A stretch of DNA of 64,000 nt from Dethiosulfovibrio faecalis. GTDB taxonomy: Bacteria; Synergistota; Synergistia; Synergistales; Dethiosulfovibrionaceae. The notes beneath the pieces are model-generated. The model was given only the letters and a program-made list of their open reading frames with translations. It was not told the origin of the DNA and did not search any database. The translations under genes and the position numbers were made by a program. Shown in pieces: positions 50,893 through 58,712 of this stretch; within the stretch, counting starts at the first letter, position 1; every line of letters starts with the position of its first letter. The DNA is taken from positions 1 to 64,000 of the forward strand of contig NZ_JAKGUE010000005.1 in assembly GCF_021568795.1 (NCBI RefSeq), given 5' to 3'.

Positions 50893-52481
50893 CTTTATGG
50901 GCGGCCTTGGGGATATTCGTGCTTTATCCCCTGGGCCGTCTCTTCGTCGTAGCGACCACCAATGGCGGAGGATTCTCGCCGACCCACCTGCTGAACGTGA
51001 TGACCGACGGCTACAGCCTCGCCGCCATGAGGAACACAGCGGTACTGGCGACGGCTGTGGCCACGGCGGGAACGGCGATAGGCTTCGCCTTCGCGCTCTG
51101 CTCCTCGGGGATGCCGATTCCCCGTTGGCTCGGCAGGACCGTCGACAGCGTAGTCGTGCTGCCGCTGGTCTCCCCGCCCTTCATGACCGGGATATCCCTG
51201 TCGATACTGCTGGGACCGGGGGGAACCATACCGAATCTGATCGGCATGCCCGATCTGAACCTCTACGGGTTCTGGGGAACCTGGCTCGCAGAGATCATGA
51301 CCTATTTTCCTCTCGCCTATCTGGCACTGTCGGCGGTCCTCAAGGGGATAGGCGGAGAACTGGAGGAATCGGCCATGACCCTGGGGGCCACCAGGCTTCA
51401 GGCTTTCCGAAAGGTGACCATTCCTATGGCGATCCCTGGCCTGGCCAACTCGTTCCTGCTGCTCTTCGGAGCCTCTTTGGCCGATTTCGCGTCGCCTATG
51501 GTGATGGGGGGACACGGTTTTCCCGTCCTGACCACCCAGGCCTATCTCAGGATAACGGGCATGTACGACCTCCAGGGAGGAGCGGCCCTCTCTCTTTTTC
51601 TGATAATACCCGCCATAGGGGTTTACCTGATCCAGAGAAGGTGGACCGAGAACCGGGAGTTCACCACCATGTCGGGGAAAGGCGGCAGGGACCGCCCTCG
51701 AAGACCGGTCGAGACGTGGGAAAAGTGGATCCTGGCCGTCGTGGCGTCCATATCGTCGTTCCTGCTGGTCGTATACGGCACCATACTGACGGCGTCTTTG
51801 GTCCGGGCGTGGGGACTGGACAACAGCTTTACGCTGGAACATTACGGCTACGCCCTGTCGTCGGGGCTGAGCTCCATAAAGGACACCGTCCTGCTGGCTG
51901 CCACCGCTACCGTGATCGGCACGGTCGTATCGGTGACGGCGGGCTATCTGGTAACTAAAAGGGAGACTCCCCTCAGACGGACCATGGAGGCTACCTCCCT
52001 TCTGAACTCCATATTGCCCGGCACAGCCGTCGGGATAGCCTACGTGATAGCCTTCAACTCCGGCCCGATCGTCTTGACCGGAACCATGACCATACTGGTG
52101 GCCCTGTGCGTTTTCCGCTACGGTGCCGCAGCGATGAGGCTCACGATAGCGTCGCTGAGCCAGATGGACCGTTCCCTGGAGGAGGCCGCCATGAACCTAG
52201 GAGCCTCGGGATTCACAGTGTTCAGGAAGATAACCGTCCCTCTTATAGCCCCGGCCATATCGGGAGGGATGAAATCACTGTTCGTGATATCGATGACGGC
52301 GATAAGCGCCATGATATTTCTGGTCTCGGTCAGATGGAACCTCCTCACGGTTAGGATACTGGAGTGCATCACCGAGCTTATGTTCGGCCAGGCGGCGGCC
52401 CTGTCGGTGGTGCTGGTCACCATCGTCTTCTCCGTTTCGAAGCTGATAGACCGGCTCTTTCGAGTCAGATGGAGAAATTGA
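50868..52481 (+). CDS. Iron(III) ABC transporter permease (second copy, fused double permease)
   Basis: 537 residues, two permease domains in one chain (about 12 helices). EAA loops are visible in LEESAMTLGATRLQAFRKVTI and LEEAAMNLGASGFTVFRKITV. The ATG at 50868 overlaps the binding-protein gene by 25 bases; an ATG at 50832 is in frame but has less family support. No ATPase gene follows: the next gene is convergent and overlaps the 3' end by 17 bases. It must use an ATPase from elsewhere, possibly the product of 39781-40740. Confidence 0.9.
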   Translation: MGRRGASLALWAALGIFVLYPLGRLFVVATTNGGGFSPTHLLNVMTDGYSLAAMRNTAVLATAVATAGTAIGFAFALCSSGMPIPRWLGRTVDSVVVLPLVSPPFMTGISLSILLGPGGTIPNLIGMPDLNLYGFWGTWLAEIMTYFPLAYLALSAVLKGIGGELEESAMTLGATRLQAFRKVTIPMAIPGLANSFLLLFGASLADFASPMVMGGHGFPVLTTQAYLRITGMYDLQGGAALSLFLIIPAIGVYLIQRRWTENREFTTMSGKGGRDRPRRPVETWEKWILAVVASISSFLLVVYGTILTASLVRAWGLDNSFTLEHYGYALSSGLSSIKDTVLLAATATVIGTVVSVTAGYLVTKRETPLRRTMEATSLLNSILPGTAVGIAYVIAFNSGPIVLTGTMTILVALCVFRYGAAAMRLTIASLSQMDRSLEEAAMNLGASGFTVFRKITVPLIAPAISGGMKSLFVISMTAISAMIFLVSVRWNLLTVRILECITELMFGQAAALSVVLVTIVFSVSKLIDRLFRVRWRN

Positions 52482-53562
52482 GCTTATCCAACATCTCCTC
52501 TATCTCGTCGTCCGTCACGTTCAGGGCCGGCAGGAAACGTATAGCCCCTCCGGCTACGTTGAGCAGAACTCCTCGATCGAAGGCCACCTGGCGAACCGCA
52601 CCGGCGTCTTCCGTGACGGCACCTATCATGAGCCCCAAACCTCTGACCGAATCGACCCAGGGAAGCCCTCTCAGCCCCTCGGACAGAAGCCGCCCCTTAC
52701 GGGTCACCTCCGACAGAAATTCGTCGGTCATGGCCCGCAGGACGGGAAGCCCCGCCGCAAGGGATAAGGGGTTTGGCGCAAAGGTGGAGCCGTGTTCCCC
52801 CTGGGCGAAGGGAGAACATCCGAAGGCCATGAGGGCTCCCAGAGGCAGCCCACCTCCCAGCCCCTTCCCCAAGGTGACCAGATCGGGCTTAAGGCCGTAG
52901 TGCCGATAGCCGTAGCCCTTTCCGGTTCGTCCCAGTCCGGACTGGATCTCGTCGGCCACCAAGAGGAACCGACCTTCCTCGTGAAGGGAGCGTATGGTCT
53001 CGGCCAGATCCTCCGAGCAGGGAAGAATTCCGCTGTTGCCCTGCACCGTCTCCAGAAAGACCGCCGCCACCTCGTTGGCCTCGCAGAAGAGCCTCAGGCA
53101 TTCGCCGCTTCGAGGTAAAAATATGCCGTCGGAAAGCAGCGGTTCGAAAGGCTTCCTTATGCCCGGGCCCCAGGTGATGGACAGGGAGCCGCAGGTCCTG
53201 CCATGGAAGTTCCCCTTAAAGGAGATTATCTTGCCCGGTCTGAGGGCCTTAACAGCCTTGATAGCCGCCTCGGTGGCCTCCGCCCCCGAGTTGGAAAATG
53301 CGACCTGTCCTTCTCTTCCGTCCAGAGCCAGAACGGCCTCGGCCATGGAAAGGGCGTCGGGGTCGAGAAAGTAGTTTCCCAGGTGAAGATGTCGGCCTGC
53401 CTTGGCCTCGATGGCCTTCAAGGTCGGTCCGTAGGAATGGCCCATGGCCATGACTCCTATGCCGGAGTAACAGTCCAGAAACTCTCCCCTGTCGGTGAAG
53501 ATCCTGACCCCCTCGGCACGTTCCACCGTGATCGGGAGGGGACTGTAGAGAGGTGCCAGCAT
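52465..53562 (-). CDS. Class III aminotransferase (ArgD/LysJ-like), probable acyl-diaminopimelate aminotransferase
   Basis: 365 residues, a little shorter than most ArgD proteins because of a short N-terminus. The PLP lysine is in TLGKGLGGGLPLG, and LVADEIQSGLGRTG is the cofactor-facing block. Position as the last gene of a dapA-dapB-dapH-lysC operon suggests it aminates the N-acyl-keto-amino-pimelate intermediate, although class III enzymes are better known from arginine synthesis; dual use is possible. Its ATG shares a base with the lysC stop (TGATG), so it is translationally coupled. Confidence 0.88.
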   Translation of the reverse strand: MLAPLYSPLPITVERAEGVRIFTDRGEFLDCYSGIGVMAMGHSYGPTLKAIEAKAGRHLHLGNYFLDPDALSMAEAVLALDGREGQVAFSNSGAEATEAAIKAVKALRPGKIISFKGNFHGRTCGSLSITWGPGIRKPFEPLLSDGIFLPRSGECLRLFCEANEVAAVFLETVQGNSGILPCSEDLAETIRSLHEEGRFLLVADEIQSGLGRTGKGYGYRHYGLKPDLVTLGKGLGGGLPLGALMAFGCSPFAQGEHGSTFAPNPLSLAAGLPVLRAMTDEFLSEVTRKGRLLSEGLRGLPWVDSVRGLGLMIGAVTEDAGAVRQVAFDRGVLLNVAGGAIRFLPALNVTDDEIEEMLDKLNFSI

Positions 53563-54782
53563 CAGAATTGTTCCTCCCTACGGTCGAACTCCGCCACCAG
53601 AGCTTTGGCGGCGTCGCCGGCCTGATCCCTCGGAACTAGCACCGATATCTTTATCTCCGACGTGGTGGTCCCCAGAACCGAGACCTCCGCTCCGTCCAGA
53701 GCGGAGAAGAAACGGGCCGCCACGCCGGAGCTGGTCTTCATTCCGACTCCCACGGCCGACACCTTGGCAACGGTGGAGTCGTCCGACAGGGACCAACCGT
53801 CGATACCCTCCAGACTCTCCCTCACGGAATCACGGACCTGACATATATGCCCCGACACCACGGAGAAGGTTATGGATGTCCTCCCTCCGGCGGAGACGGT
53901 GGATATCATGTCCACGTTGACCCCGTCGGCGGCGAGACATCCGAATAACCTCGTGAGAAGGTCGACCCCGTCGGGCAGACCCTCCAGAGTGACCTTCATC
54001 TGATCCATGTCGACGGCGATACCGGTTACCACAGGTTGTTCCAGCCACTCCGGAAGCGTATTCACTATTCTCGTCCCCTCCTCGTCGGAAAATGTGGAGC
54101 CGCAGTAAAGGTCCACCTCGTATTTCTTAGCTATCTCCACCCCTCTGGAATGAAGGACCCTGGCTCCCAACGCGGCCATCTCTAGCATCTCGTCGTAGAC
54201 CACGTAGTCCAACTTCTTGGCCTCCGGCACGACTCTGGGGTCGCAGGCGTATATACCGGCCACGTCGCTGTATATCTCGCAGGGGACCCCCAGCTTGGCC
54301 GCCACGGCTATAGCCGAGGTGTCCGAGCCACCCCTGCCCAACGTGGTCACGTCGCCGTCGGGCGATATGCCCTGAAATCCGGTGATGACCACCACCTGAA
54401 CGTCCTCGAGGCGATGCCTGAGCTTTGATAGGTCCAGATCAACTATGCGGGCGTCGCGAAACCGTCCGGTAGTCTCTATGCCGAGCTGAAAGGCGTTGAG
54501 AGACAGGGCGGAGACCTCCATGTCGTGCAGGGCCATCGCCAGCAGGGCGGCGGAGGTCTGTTCCCCCGTCGAGAGAAGCATGTCCATCTCCCTGGGGCTC
54601 GGCGACGAACTAACCTGCTCCGCCAGGGAGATCAGGTCATCGGTGGTATCTCCCATGGCGGAGACCACCACGGCCAGCCTATCCCCTCGGGCTACCCTGT
54701 CTACTATCTTTCGGGCGACCGCCTTTATGTGCCCAGCAGTGGCGACCGACGAACCTCCGTATTTCTGGACCACCAAGGCCAT
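53562..54782 (-). CDS. lysC: Aspartokinase
   Basis: 406 residues. It phosphorylates aspartate, the first step towards lysine, threonine and methionine. The N-terminal kinase domain starts with VVQKYGGSSVA, has GRGGSDTSAIAVAAKL, and is followed by two ACT-like regulatory repeats (about 265-400; GVDLLTRLFGCLAADGVNVDM and GVAARFFSALDGAEVSVLG) where lysine or threonine can inhibit. The gene starts 2 bases after dapH and overlaps the next start codon. Confidence 0.95.
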   Translation of the reverse strand: MALVVQKYGGSSVATAGHIKAVARKIVDRVARGDRLAVVVSAMGDTTDDLISLAEQVSSSPSPREMDMLLSTGEQTSAALLAMALHDMEVSALSLNAFQLGIETTGRFRDARIVDLDLSKLRHRLEDVQVVVITGFQGISPDGDVTTLGRGGSDTSAIAVAAKLGVPCEIYSDVAGIYACDPRVVPEAKKLDYVVYDEMLEMAALGARVLHSRGVEIAKKYEVDLYCGSTFSDEEGTRIVNTLPEWLEQPVVTGIAVDMDQMKVTLEGLPDGVDLLTRLFGCLAADGVNVDMISTVSAGGRTSITFSVVSGHICQVRDSVRESLEGIDGWSLSDDSTVAKVSAVGVGMKTSSGVAARFFSALDGAEVSVLGTTTSEIKISVLVPRDQAGDAAKALVAEFDRREEQF

Positions 54783-54784
54783 GG

Positions 54785-55483
54785 CTAAAGTTCCCTCAGA
54801 TCCGCCACTATGCGGGTTTTATCGGCGGTCTGGGCATCCACGTCCTTTACCACCCTGGCTGGGATACCGGCCACCACTACTCCGGGAGGAACGTCCTTGG
54901 TGACTATGGCTCCGGCCGCCACCACAGAACGGGCTCCGACCCTCACTCCCTCGAATATGACGGCGTTGGCCCCCACCAGGACGTCGTCCTCCACCACCAC
55001 AGGCAGGGCGCTAGGGGGCTCTATGACTCCGGCCAGCACCGCTCCGGCACCGATATGACAGTTCTTCCCCACCGTGGCCCGACCTCCAAGCACGGCGTTC
55101 ATGTCTATCATGGTGCCCTCTCCTATCACCGCTCCGATGTTTATGACAGCCCCCATCATGACGACGGCCCCTCTGTCTATCTCCACCATATCGCGGATGA
55201 TCGCACCGGGCTCTATTCTGGCCTCGTATCTGGTCAGGTCCGCCATCGGCACGGCCGAGTTTCTGGCCTCGACCTCGACCTCGAAATCGTCGATGCGGTC
55301 CGAGTTGGCCTCCAAAAAGGCCATAACCTCGGCTCTGTCTCCCTTGACGACGCCGAACTCGGATCCTCCGACGAAACGGAGATCGCCCCAGTTCAGCCCA
55401 TCCAGTTTGCCGGAGAGAAAAACCCTGACCGGCGTTTTCTTGACCGACTCCTTTATTAGTCGGATCACCTCTTCAGTGCGCAT
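54785..55483 (-). CDS. dapH: Tetrahydrodipicolinate N-acetyltransferase
   Basis: 232 residues. It acetylates tetrahydrodipicolinate, which commits DAP synthesis to the acetylase branch. An N-terminal DapH_N domain (about 1-85, ending near [17 protein letters not shown]) is followed by a left-handed beta-helix of hexapeptide turns ([31 protein letters not shown]). Length and the N-terminal domain distinguish it from the longer succinyltransferase DapD. It overlaps the end of dapB by 19 bases. Confidence 0.93.
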
Positions 55484-56115
55484 CGAACGACCTCCTCGAA
55501 ATCGTAAAGTCCCGGCTCGCTATCCAGGGCGAAACGAGCCGCCCTGTAGGCTCCCATGGCGAATACCTTTCTGGACAGTGCCCTGTGTCCGAAGGACAGA
55601 ACCTCCCCCTCGTTGGCGAAGGATACGGAGTGATCCCCGGGAACTCCGCCGAGCCTGAGCGAGTGGGTGGGGCAATCCCTGCCGACAGCGTCTTTAAGTA
55701 GAATGGCGGTACCGGAAGGGGCGTCCACCTTGTGTACGTGGTGGGTCTCGCATATCTCGACATCCCAGTCATCGAGGGCGGCGGAATAATCCCTAAGGAC
55801 CATCTTCAACAGTCCGATGCCCATGGAAAAGTTGTATCCCTGGACCACCGGTACGGTCCTAGCCAGGTCGGCCAGGGCCTCGAAATGCCTCTCCTTCAGC
55901 GCCGTTGTGCCGAGGACCAGGGCCGACCGATATTCCCTGCATATGCCCATGGTCCTCTCCAGAGCCTCGGGACGAGAGAAGTCGACCATCACCTCCGGCC
56001 GGTCGAGAACGGCCTCGTCCTCCAGGGACACTGTGGCCACACAGTCGTCCGGGCCGAATACCTCCAGCAGCTCTCGCCCCATCCGGCCGGATGCCCCGGT
56101 TATTCCGTACTTCAT
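55465..56115 (-). CDS. dapB: 4-hydroxy-tetrahydrodipicolinate reductase
   Basis: 216 residues, shorter than the usual 240-270. It reduces the DapA product with NAD(P)H. The N-terminal nucleotide loop is [13 protein letters not shown], and the catalytic motif [15 protein letters not shown] has the conserved His and Lys. The shortening lies in the N-terminal domain between the Rossmann loop and [10 protein letters not shown]. It starts one base after dapA ends and overlaps dapH. Confidence 0.94.
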
Positions 56116-56116
56116 A

Positions 56117-56995
56117 TCAGAGACCCAGTTCGTCCATCAGGCAGTCTAGGCCGTCTCTGGCTTTCTCCGACAGGGGTACCAGAGGCAGGCGTATCTCCTG
56201 AGAGCAATAGCCGAGACGGGCCACCGCGTACTTGACCGGTATGGGATTGGTCTCCACGAAAAGCCCCTTCATCATGGGGAAGAGTTTCATATGGGCCTTT
56301 CTGGCCGCAGGCAGATCCTCGTCCAGGACGGATCTGATCATGGTCGAGGTCTCTCGGGGAACCACGTTGGACAGAACGGAGATCACTCCGTCCCCTCCGC
56401 TGCAGACCAGGTGGAAGGCCTGGTCGTCGTTGCCAGAGTAGACCTTGAACTCCGGACGGACCTTCTTGACCCTCCGTATGAGGTCGTCCACCTGGGCCAT
56501 GTCGCCGCTGGCCTCCTTGATTCCTGCGACGTTTTCCAGATCCGCCAGTCTCAGGACCGTATCGGGATGGATGTTGCATCCCGTGCGTCCCGGGACGTTG
56601 TATATCACCATCGGTATGGATATGGCCTTGGCCACCTCCCGAAAATGACGATAGAGCCCCTCCTGTGTGGGCTTGTTGTAATAGGGGGTTACGACCAAGA
56701 CGCCGTCCGCTCCCAGCTCCTGGGCCCTCAAGCTGGACGACACCGCATGATCCGTCGAGTTGCTGCCGGTTCCCACTATCACAGGGACCCTGCCTGCCGC
56801 AGCAGCGACGGCACAGGAGATTATCTCCGTCCTCTCCTCCTCGGAGACCGAAGGAGCCTCCCCTGTCGTGCCGAGGACGATCAGGGCCTCCACACCGCCC
56901 TCTATCTGAAACTCTATGAAACGACGAAAGGATTCCTCGTCGAAACGCCCCTCGGCAAAGGGGGTTACCAAAGCCGTTCCGGTTCCTCTGAACAT
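56117..56995 (-). CDS. dapA: 4-hydroxy-tetrahydrodipicolinate synthase
   Basis: 292 residues. It condenses pyruvate with aspartate semialdehyde, the first committed step of DAP and lysine synthesis. The pyruvate-binding Lys lies in VAGIKEASGD, the Tyr in MVIYNVPGRTG, and the GTTGEAPSVSEEER block is typical. GAGGAGGAA precedes the ATG by a normal distance. It is the first gene of the five-gene operon controlled by the T-box leader. Confidence 0.96.
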   Translation of the reverse strand: MFRGTGTALVTPFAEGRFDEESFRRFIEFQIEGGVEALIVLGTTGEAPSVSEEERTEIISCAVAAAAGRVPVIVGTGSNSTDHAVSSSLRAQELGADGVLVVTPYYNKPTQEGLYRHFREVAKAISIPMVIYNVPGRTGCNIHPDTVLRLADLENVAGIKEASGDMAQVDDLIRRVKKVRPEFKVYSGNDDQAFHLVCSGGDGVISVLSNVVPRETSTMIRSVLDEDLPAARKAHMKLFPMMKGLFVETNPIPVKYAVARLGYCSQEIRLPLVPLSEKARDGLDCLMDELGL

Positions 56996-57062
56996 CTCTC
57001 CATTCCTCCTCTCGAATTTCGGGACCCTCCGGGATCCCAGTAAATGATATCCCTATTATACG

Positions 57063-57095
57063 AAAAAAGCTCGCCCCCGAAATAGGGACGAGCTT
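57063..57095 (-). terminator. Second T-box terminator
   Basis: AAGCTCG/CGAGCTT with inner CCC/GGG pairing is followed by six T residues on the minus strand. Its 5' arm contains CTCGTCCCT, the partner of the second T-box core. Confidence 0.85.
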
Positions 57096-57171
57096 GAGCC
57101 CGCGGTACCACCCTGATTGGACGATCGGAAGTATCACCGGGGAGATCCCGCAAAGGTCTGTCCTAAAGACA

Positions 57172-57200
57172 AGGCCCGTCCCTCGTCGAGGGACGGGCCT
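57172..57200 (-). terminator. First T-box terminator
   Basis: A perfect 13-bp stem, AGGCCCGTCCCTC with complement, loop GAC, followed by TTGTCTTT on the minus strand. It lies 4 bases after the first T-box core. Confidence 0.8.
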
Positions 57201-57471
57201 AAAACCCGCGGTACCACCCTGGTTGAGCATCTTCCGACGCCCCGCTTACGGCCCTGTGACGGGAGCCTCCCGGAGAGCTTACTACGACGACCTCCGTAAA
57301 GATCGCCTTTCGGCCTCGGCTCGCCGGACCTTATCCCCCGAAACGACGTCTCAGGTCCCTTCCAGCCGATGGAGACCTCTCTCTGGCAAAACGTCTTACG
57401 TCGCAGGGGCTTCCGGTTCATCGCCTTTGACGGTATGCTTGTGTAACTCCGATATCCGGAGATTTCCGAGA

Positions 57472-57500
57472 ATTATATACGCCTATATATGTGAAGTCAA
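57472..57500 (-). promoter_or_regulatory. Sigma-70 promoter of the T-box/dap operon
   Basis: Minus-strand TTGACT and a perfect TATAAT are exactly 17 bases apart. The promoter lies in the gap shared with the divergent M20 gene, whose start codon is 19 bases from its -35 box. Confidence 0.85.
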
Positions 57501-57518
57501 GTGGAAAGGATGAGATAA

Positions 57519-58712
57519 ATGGATACCATGGTTCAGGCCAGAGAGCTCAGCAGTTGGCTCATCGATCTTCGCCGGGAGATACACCGTAGACCGGGGCTGG
57601 ATTTCGACCTGGAGGAGACGGCTCTGCTTGTAGAGAGAGAGCTCGACGAGATGGGAATACCGTTCAGAAGGCACGCCGGAACCGGGATAGCCGGAAGAAT
57701 AGAGGGAAACTCCAAGGGGCCTACCGTTCTTCTCAGAGCGGACATGGACGGGCTGCCTGTAAAGGAACTGACCGGTCGACCTTACTCGTCGGAGATCCCG
57801 GGAGTCATGCACGCCTGCGGACACGACGGACACACCGCCTGCCTGCTAGGGGCGGCGAAACTGCTGAGCTCGGCTAAGGACTCCCTCGAGGGAGATATAC
57901 TGCTGGTTTTTCAACCGGCGGAGGAGACCTCCGGGGGGGCCAAGCCCATGATCGACGACGGCCTGCTGGACCCGGGAAAGCCGCTGGCGGCGCTCGGGCT
58001 TCACGTAAACCCCAACCTGAAGGTCGGAACGGTGGGGATAAACCCGGGGAAGACCATGGCTGCATCGGATATGTTCGACCTGGTGATCAGAGGAGAGGGA
58101 TGCCACGGAGCGGAACCCCACCGCGGACTGGACGCCGTGGCCATAGCCTGCCAGACCGTCACGGCGTTACAGCAGATAGTCAGCAGAAGGACCGACCCGG
58201 TGGAATCGGCTGTATTGACAGTGGGCTCCATCCACGGGGGCAACGGCAGGAACGTGGTTGCCTCAGAGGTCCGTCTGGAGGGAATCATAAGGACGGTGGA
58301 CAGAGACCTCAGGGAAAAGCTGAGGGAGGAGACCGCCAAGATGGCAGTGGAGATCCCTAAAGCCATGGGAGGCGAGGCGGAAATAACCTTCGTGCAGGGA
58401 TATCCTCCTCTGATAAACGACAGGAGGGTCTGTTCCGCCGTCTCCCTTTCGGCCCGATCCATACTGGGCGACGGTTCGGTGATACCGATGGACAATCCTT
58501 CCATGGGAGTCGACGATTTTGCATACTTCGCCGAACTCTGCCCCTCCTGCTATTTCATGCTGGGCGTAGGCAACGGAGGCAAGGGGATATCGGCACCGTT
58601 GCACAGCCCCTATTTCGACCTGGACGAATCGGCCCTCCCCATAGGAGCAGCTATACTCGCCAAATCCGCGGCAACCCTGTTGAAAGAGGGACTCACCGAC
58701 CGAAAGCCTTGA
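57519..58712 (+). CDS. M20 family amidohydrolase, candidate N-acetyldiaminopimelate deacetylase
   Basis: 397 residues, M20D group. Metal ligands are seen in MHACGHDGHTA (Cys/His), PAEETSGGAKPM (Glu-Glu), GLHVNP (His) and the C-terminal LHSPYFDLDE. It lacks a signal peptide. The neighbouring operon encodes the acetylase branch of DAP synthesis, which needs a deacetylase of this family, so that is the best guess; hippurate-type or indole-acetyl-amino-acid hydrolase activity cannot be excluded. AAAGGATGA precedes the ATG. Its 3' end overlaps the convergent HD-GYP gene by 20 bases. Confidence 0.88.
   Translation: MDTMVQARELSSWLIDLRREIHRRPGLDFDLEETALLVERELDEMGIPFRRHAGTGIAGRIEGNSKGPTVLLRADMDGLPVKELTGRPYSSEIPGVMHACGHDGHTACLLGAAKLLSSAKDSLEGDILLVFQPAEETSGGAKPMIDDGLLDPGKPLAALGLHVNPNLKVGTVGINPGKTMAASDMFDLVIRGEGCHGAEPHRGLDAVAIACQTVTALQQIVSRRTDPVESAVLTVGSIHGGNGRNVVASEVRLEGIIRTVDRDLREKLREETAKMAVEIPKAMGGEAEITFVQGYPPLINDRRVCSAVSLSARSILGDGSVIPMDNPSMGVDDFAYFAELCPSCYFMLGVGNGGKGISAPLHSPYFDLDESALPIGAAILAKSAATLLKEGLTDRKP

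Follow-up and report, generated by a model that had tools for sequence, protein, structure and literature searches.

T-box work assumes one tRNA and one discriminator. In the window analysed here, which comprises the first 64,000 nucleotides of contig NZ_JAKGUE010000005.1 of Dethiosulfovibrio faecalis, the minus strand carries a T-box leader with one stem I and two antiterminator/terminator modules in series, upstream of dapA. This arrangement raises the question of how a single decoding domain may serve two switches. We consider it probable that the leader is a transcriptional T-box of the duplicated-discriminator kind, in which one reading of tRNA-Lys(CUU) is followed by two serial checks of tRNA-Lys.

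On the minus strand, the leader extends from a sigma-70-like promoter at 57500-57472 to dapA at 56995. Besides this promoter, no promoter-like site was found in 56980-57530, so that none separates the two modules. The extent of 57465-57063 proposed in the earlier note agrees with transcription beginning a short way past the -10 box. A covariance-model search matched RF00230 end to end (model 1-219) at 57430-57186, with 62.8 bits and an E-value of 2.3e-13. Stem I, stem II, stem IIA/B, stem III and antiterminator 1 are thus all present as in the canonical single T-box (RF00230), to which the leader adds a second antiterminator/terminator while scoring below the gathering cut-off. Since 62.8 bits is lower than the curated cut-off of 93 bits, an Rfam scan at the gathering threshold returns no match on the leader, and the T-box becomes visible only in E-value mode. 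All T-boxes of this genome score under the cut-off, as do the lysine leaders of the family, and standard annotation would therefore miss these leaders.

Fold predictions on GC-rich RNA are weak evidence. The whole leader folds better than its shuffled versions (z -3.6); stem I alone does not (z -1.05), and a full-leader fold without constraints did not reproduce the T-box architecture upstream of terminator 1.

The second module is a partial repeat. The core AGGGTGGTACCGCGGG occurs exactly twice in the window, at 57220-57205 and 57114-57099 of the minus strand, with starts 106 nt apart. Allowing up to 3 mismatches gave five matches against 0.82 expected, and the three besides the exact pair all have 3 mismatches. 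Each core is followed by a terminator-like hairpin (57200-57172 and 57095-57067; 2 found by the consensus scan, 0.6 expected in shuffles). In the genome-wide search, the second core yielded a partial RF00230 match restricted to model positions 183-216 (27 bits), which corresponds to the antiterminator alone; a second full-length match at this core was not found by the covariance-model search. Only ~50 nt lie between the terminator-1 tail and core 2, which is too short for a second stem I, and the second complete stem I of a tandem T-box is accordingly absent. The doubled core at a distance of 106 bases, the single stem I and the search outcome of one full T-box plus an antiterminator-only match all bear out the earlier note. 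Its claim of a terminator after each core also stands, with the small correction that the terminator-1 U tract is imperfect in this strain (UUGUCUUU). This broken tract, with a small hairpin (GUCUUUAGGAC) after it, lies at 57172-57160 (minus strand) and also occurs in the two closest relatives of the window leader; in other Dethiosulfovibrio genomes the terminator-1 U tract is clean.

Table 1. Features of the leader and its operon (coordinates in the window)
Feature	Position	Strand	Basis
Promoter, sigma-70-like, TTGACT-17-TATAAT	57472..57500	-	11/12 consensus matches
Stem I (decoding domain), the leader's only one	57319..57425	-	RF00230 alignment and fold; approximate boundaries
Specifier AAG (Lys), next base G57329	57330..57332	-	fold and comparison
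Stem II and stem IIA/B region	57243..57318	-	RF00230 alignment, AGUA and CCGUnA motifs; approximate boundaries
Stem III, module 1 (GGGCGUC-GGAA-GAUGCUC)	57225..57242	-	segment fold -10.7 kcal/mol
Antiterminator 1, UGGU bulge (AGGGUGGUACCGCGGG...CCCGUCCCU)	57189..57220	-	RF00230 alignment and predicted fold
Terminator 1, 13-pair stem, imperfect U tract UUGUCUUU	57165..57200	-	fold and terminator scan
Inter-module linker, without stem I, weak possible hairpin only	57115..57164	-	fold
Antiterminator 2, second UGGU bulge (AGGGUGGUACCGCGGGCUCAAGCUCGUCCCU)	57084..57114	-	partial RF00230 match and predicted fold
Terminator 2, 12-pair stem, clean U tract	57063..57095	-	fold and terminator scan
dapA, 4-hydroxy-tetrahydrodipicolinate synthase	56117..56995	-	TIGR00674 above cut-off
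dapB	55465..56115	-	TIGR00036 above cut-off
dapH/dapD, tetrahydrodipicolinate N-acetyltransferase	54785..55483	-	TIGR03532 above cut-off
lysC, aspartate kinase	53562..54782	-	NF005154 above cut-off
argD-like aminotransferase	52465..53562	-	best matches below curated cut-offs; start abuts lysC end

In both modules the antiterminator and the terminator are predicted to be mutually exclusive. Predicted energies are -11.7 kcal/mol for the antiterminator versus -28.1 kcal/mol for the terminator in module 1, and -10.4 versus -20.7 kcal/mol in module 2. Terminator 2 is predicted to be more stable than antiterminator 2 by 10-30 kcal/mol in all but one of the aligned leaders; in the exceptional one, whose fold is cut short, the difference is only 5 kcal/mol. 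Because terminator 2 is much more stable in nearly all leaders, antiterminator 2 would require the help of a ligand. No convincing stem III was seen in module 2 of the window leader. Among the doubled leaders, such hairpins can be drawn in those of lysA and asd and are weak in those of dapA; they are no better than shuffles, a test which the well-founded stem III of module 1 failed too.

Which amino acid does the leader sense? In a fold of 57432-57321, the AAG at 57332-57330 lies unpaired in an AUAAGG loop, between the helix CCGGA/UCCGG and the upper stem, as expected of the lysine specifier that had been read from the base of stem I. Single lysine T-boxes of other Synergistota families carry AAA or AAG followed by a purine at the homologous place; those compared stand before lysA (L173), dapA (L177, L180), asd (L208) and lysW (L170, L171). 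The Rfam register is off by one base and would give an arginine specifier (AGG). This alternative was rejected, and the lysine reading preferred, since the homologous leaders have AAA/AAG plus a purine and the genes downstream are lysine genes. The genome encodes two tRNA-Lys(CUU) and one tRNA-Lys(UUU), and both tRNA-Lys(CUU) genes specify a discriminator A73 and an encoded CCA, complementary to the UGGU bulge. Taken together, sequence and comparison show both the anatomy and the lysine specificity of the leader.

The proposed dapA-dapB-dapH-lysC order was confirmed, with profile matches above cut-off for all four genes; an argD-like aminotransferase follows and is probably the last gene of the operon. 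A divergent M20 amidohydrolase-like gene (57519-58712, plus strand) adjoins this acetyl-pathway lysine operon and could be a candidate N-acetyl-diaminopimelate deacetylase.

A search of 151 Synergistota genomes for two cores spaced as in the window found doubled leaders in 11, all within the window's own family, the Dethiosulfovibrionaceae. The 24 doubled leaders (21 aligned and three further loci) belong to Dethiosulfovibrio, the genus of the window (including STD2_11), and to Pyramidobacter (including C12-8). They precede dapA and lysA in the former and lysA and asd in the latter, and every lysine T-box examined in the two genera is doubled (24/24); the second core is thus kept in close relatives. 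The threonine-type leaders of Dethiosulfovibrio (L001, L028-L030) are single, and so are the tryptophan-type leaders of Pyramidobacter (L209-L215), which show an apparent UGG (Trp) specifier and a UGGC bulge and stand before an ABC substrate-binding protein, a trpS-like gene and others. Lysine leaders of other Synergistota families are single, except for a full tandem T-box before asd in one genome (L174, G020:C10:69450-71330). Its two copies are complete and nearly identical, with cores 279 nt apart, and it is a different route to two lysine checks. Lysine-type T-boxes (AAA/AAG) also occur in several Synergistota families before lysW-like genes of the alpha-aminoadipate lysine pathway (L170, L171, L181, L184, L197, L206), which were identified from motifs and translated starts only.

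In a FastTree phylogeny of the leader part up to core 1, the 21 aligned doubled leaders group together as a single clade within the lysine T-boxes (support 1.0); the inner branches of a tree built from such short, structured sequence should not be over-read. As this clade lies inside otherwise mostly single lysine T-boxes, the simplest history would be that the discriminator part was duplicated once, in the ancestor of the family, and that the doubled leader was kept and later copied between lysA and dapA/asd. In the window leader the two cores agree at all 16 nt, as they would after a recent duplication without function, an explanation that we find scarcely credible. The event predates the split of Dethiosulfovibrio and Pyramidobacter, the linkers have drifted apart in sequence and length around cores and terminators that all stayed in place, and module 2 remained whole when the doubled leader was copied into further operons.

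The pattern of change within module 2 is consistent with selection on both of its structures. All 24 leaders, from two genera and three gene contexts, retain core 2 whole, both its UGGU and its ACC side. Linkers are variable, with core spacings from 91 to 116 and differing sequences. Of the 21 aligned leaders, 11 have T and 10 have G as the base directly 5′ of CGUCCC. In terminator 2 this base is paired as TA/TG in 8 leaders and as GC in 10, and is unpaired in 3; in antiterminator 2, pairing at -3, -2 and 0 is kept in 21/21 and at -1 in 14/21. Terminator 2 therefore covaries clearly and antiterminator 2 mostly (18/21 versus 14/21 at the varying base). Module 2 looks functional by these measures, and the comparison shows an inherited second switch in which the capacity for both structures has been preserved.

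Such conservation bears on an explanation which we regard as unlikely, namely that module 2 is a fixed second attenuator that trims read-through by a constant factor, core 2 being a relic of the duplication unused by tRNA. Neither stem I nor a clear stem III serves module 2, and a fully bound tRNA would be expected to remain on module 1, as a fixed attenuator would have it. However, a mere terminator would not need an antiterminator-2 pairing that is largely kept while the strands change, and the intact core 2 with its UGGU and ACC side argues in the same direction.

We infer a second switch that responds to tRNA and lowers the leak, and a hand-over step between the two modules. In the reading that we favour, stem I would read the anticodon of tRNA-Lys(CUU) once, and RNA polymerase would have to pass both switches, each presenting a UGGU bulge to the tRNA ACCA end, in order to reach dapA. 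With charged tRNA-Lys both terminators could form, and the leak would thus be roughly the product of the two individual leaks. With uncharged tRNA-Lys, the 3′ end would stabilise antiterminator 1; after the polymerase has moved past, the more stable terminator-1 hairpin would refold and free the 3′ end while the anticodon is still bound. The freed 3′ end of the same tRNA, or that of a newly bound one, would then stabilise antiterminator 2. Terminator 1 is predicted to be ~16 kcal/mol more stable than antiterminator 1, and its displacement of antiterminator 1 once the polymerase has passed is the preferred but unproven form of the hand-over.

Single-molecule data for the glyQS T-box give ~4 s for tRNA held by the anticodon only and >24 s for fully bound tRNA, with polymerase proceeding at 40-50 nt/s (PMC6197855). 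Transcription of ~106 nt would take 2-3 s, so a tRNA held on stem I would outlast the synthesis of module 2. The same kinetics oppose an easy hand-over: by analogy with glyQS, a tRNA in full contact with antiterminator 1 should not let go of it during the synthesis of module 2. The latter would then be left vacant, and with its complete UGGU bulge and no decoding domain it might instead capture a second, free uncharged tRNA by the acceptor end, thereby sensing total uncharged discriminator-A tRNA and not tRNA-Lys. We judge this quite improbable, because without a stem I contact only four base pairs plus stacking would hold the second tRNA, the tRNA bound to stem I is presumably at far higher local concentration, and the doubling is confined to lysine leaders in the family, unlike what a general starvation sensor would suggest.

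What the two serial checks would achieve depends on whether tRNA is exchanged. Let each terminator have a leak b and a read-through g, and let u be the uncharged fraction; in our model a single switch then responds as b+(g-b)u. If one tRNA serves two switches, the response becomes ug^2+(1-u)b^2, with a much lower leak and still linear in u, whereas with an independent tRNA at each switch the single response is squared and is steeper. The suggestion in the earlier note that the arrangement would sharpen repression is therefore plausible only as a reduction of the leak in the off state; as long as one tRNA answers at both switches, the response remains linear in uncharged tRNA, and true sharpening would take a new tRNA at the second switch. 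Its further proposal, that module 2 tests tRNA acceptor ends independently, is possible.

A variant that we would count as a long shot couples the two cores directly. Core 1, freed by terminator 1, might pair with core 2 through the palindromic GGUACC, over as many as 10 bp, so that antiterminator 2 is blocked; a polymerase that had leaked past terminator 1 would be steered to terminator 2, while a core 1 occupied by tRNA would leave module 2 free. In fragments that begin at core 1 and end shortly after core 2, the core-core pairing probability is 0.39-1.0 in 21/21 leaders; it is mostly lost when the fold includes the upstream leader, and the palindrome is a simple consequence of UGGU. If true, such coupling would make the leader a coupled proofreading switch and not two separate gates.

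The layout is not unique to this family. A scan of 84,980 species genomes at core spacings of 91-121 nt found the two-core pattern in 110 stretches. About a quarter of the pattern sites had no antiterminator and terminator features, resembled chance matches in GC-rich repeats and were dropped; 92 sites were left, and 65 pass a filter requiring the stem I CAGAGA motif and both antiterminators. All eight loci checked with Rfam have a full-length T-box match at the first module. In two distant doubled T-boxes, of Desulforamulus and Syntrophomonas, the match of the second module starts from position 156 or 147 and includes stem III. Hosts are mostly Bacillota, with Syntrophomonadaceae, Desulfotomaculum relatives, Alicyclobacillus, Negativicutes and others, and the genes that follow, named from translated starts and not by family search, include those for DAHP synthase, chorismate mutase, amino acid transporters and acetolactate synthase. 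The doubled T-boxes of Syntrophomonas, Desulfotomaculum relatives, Alicyclobacillus and Dialister share the single upstream stem I, the two modules and the spacing (91-121 nt, the range scanned) with the window leader, but stand before genes other than those of its lysine operon.

With ~90 such sites, the layout is not categorically new and seems to represent a rare structural class that is already known. The abstract of a 2008 study by Vitreschak et al. reportedly names T-boxes with duplicated terminator-antiterminator elements as a new structural class. This class likewise has one specifier hairpin followed by two antiterminator/terminator modules, which is what the window leader contains; the restriction to lysine leaders across a whole family was found here. 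No description of the duplicated class turned up in the set of papers that we searched, and we know of no test of how it works. Tandem T-boxes, as found in trpE, thrS and ilv operons of Bacillota, also respond to one amino acid with two terminator decisions in succession, but they repeat the whole T-box including stem I (PMC12452182), whereas the window leader repeats the discriminator part only.

The feature is real, conserved and lysine-specific within the family, and belongs to a known, little-studied structural kind. The Rfam cut-off misses these doubled lysine leaders. The 24 of them in one family, set against single homologues in sister families, form a natural comparison set, which also bears on whether the effect of serial checks is a smaller leak or a steeper response. 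As the leader joins a single decoding domain to two discriminators, it lets one ask directly whether a bound tRNA can be released and then tested again.
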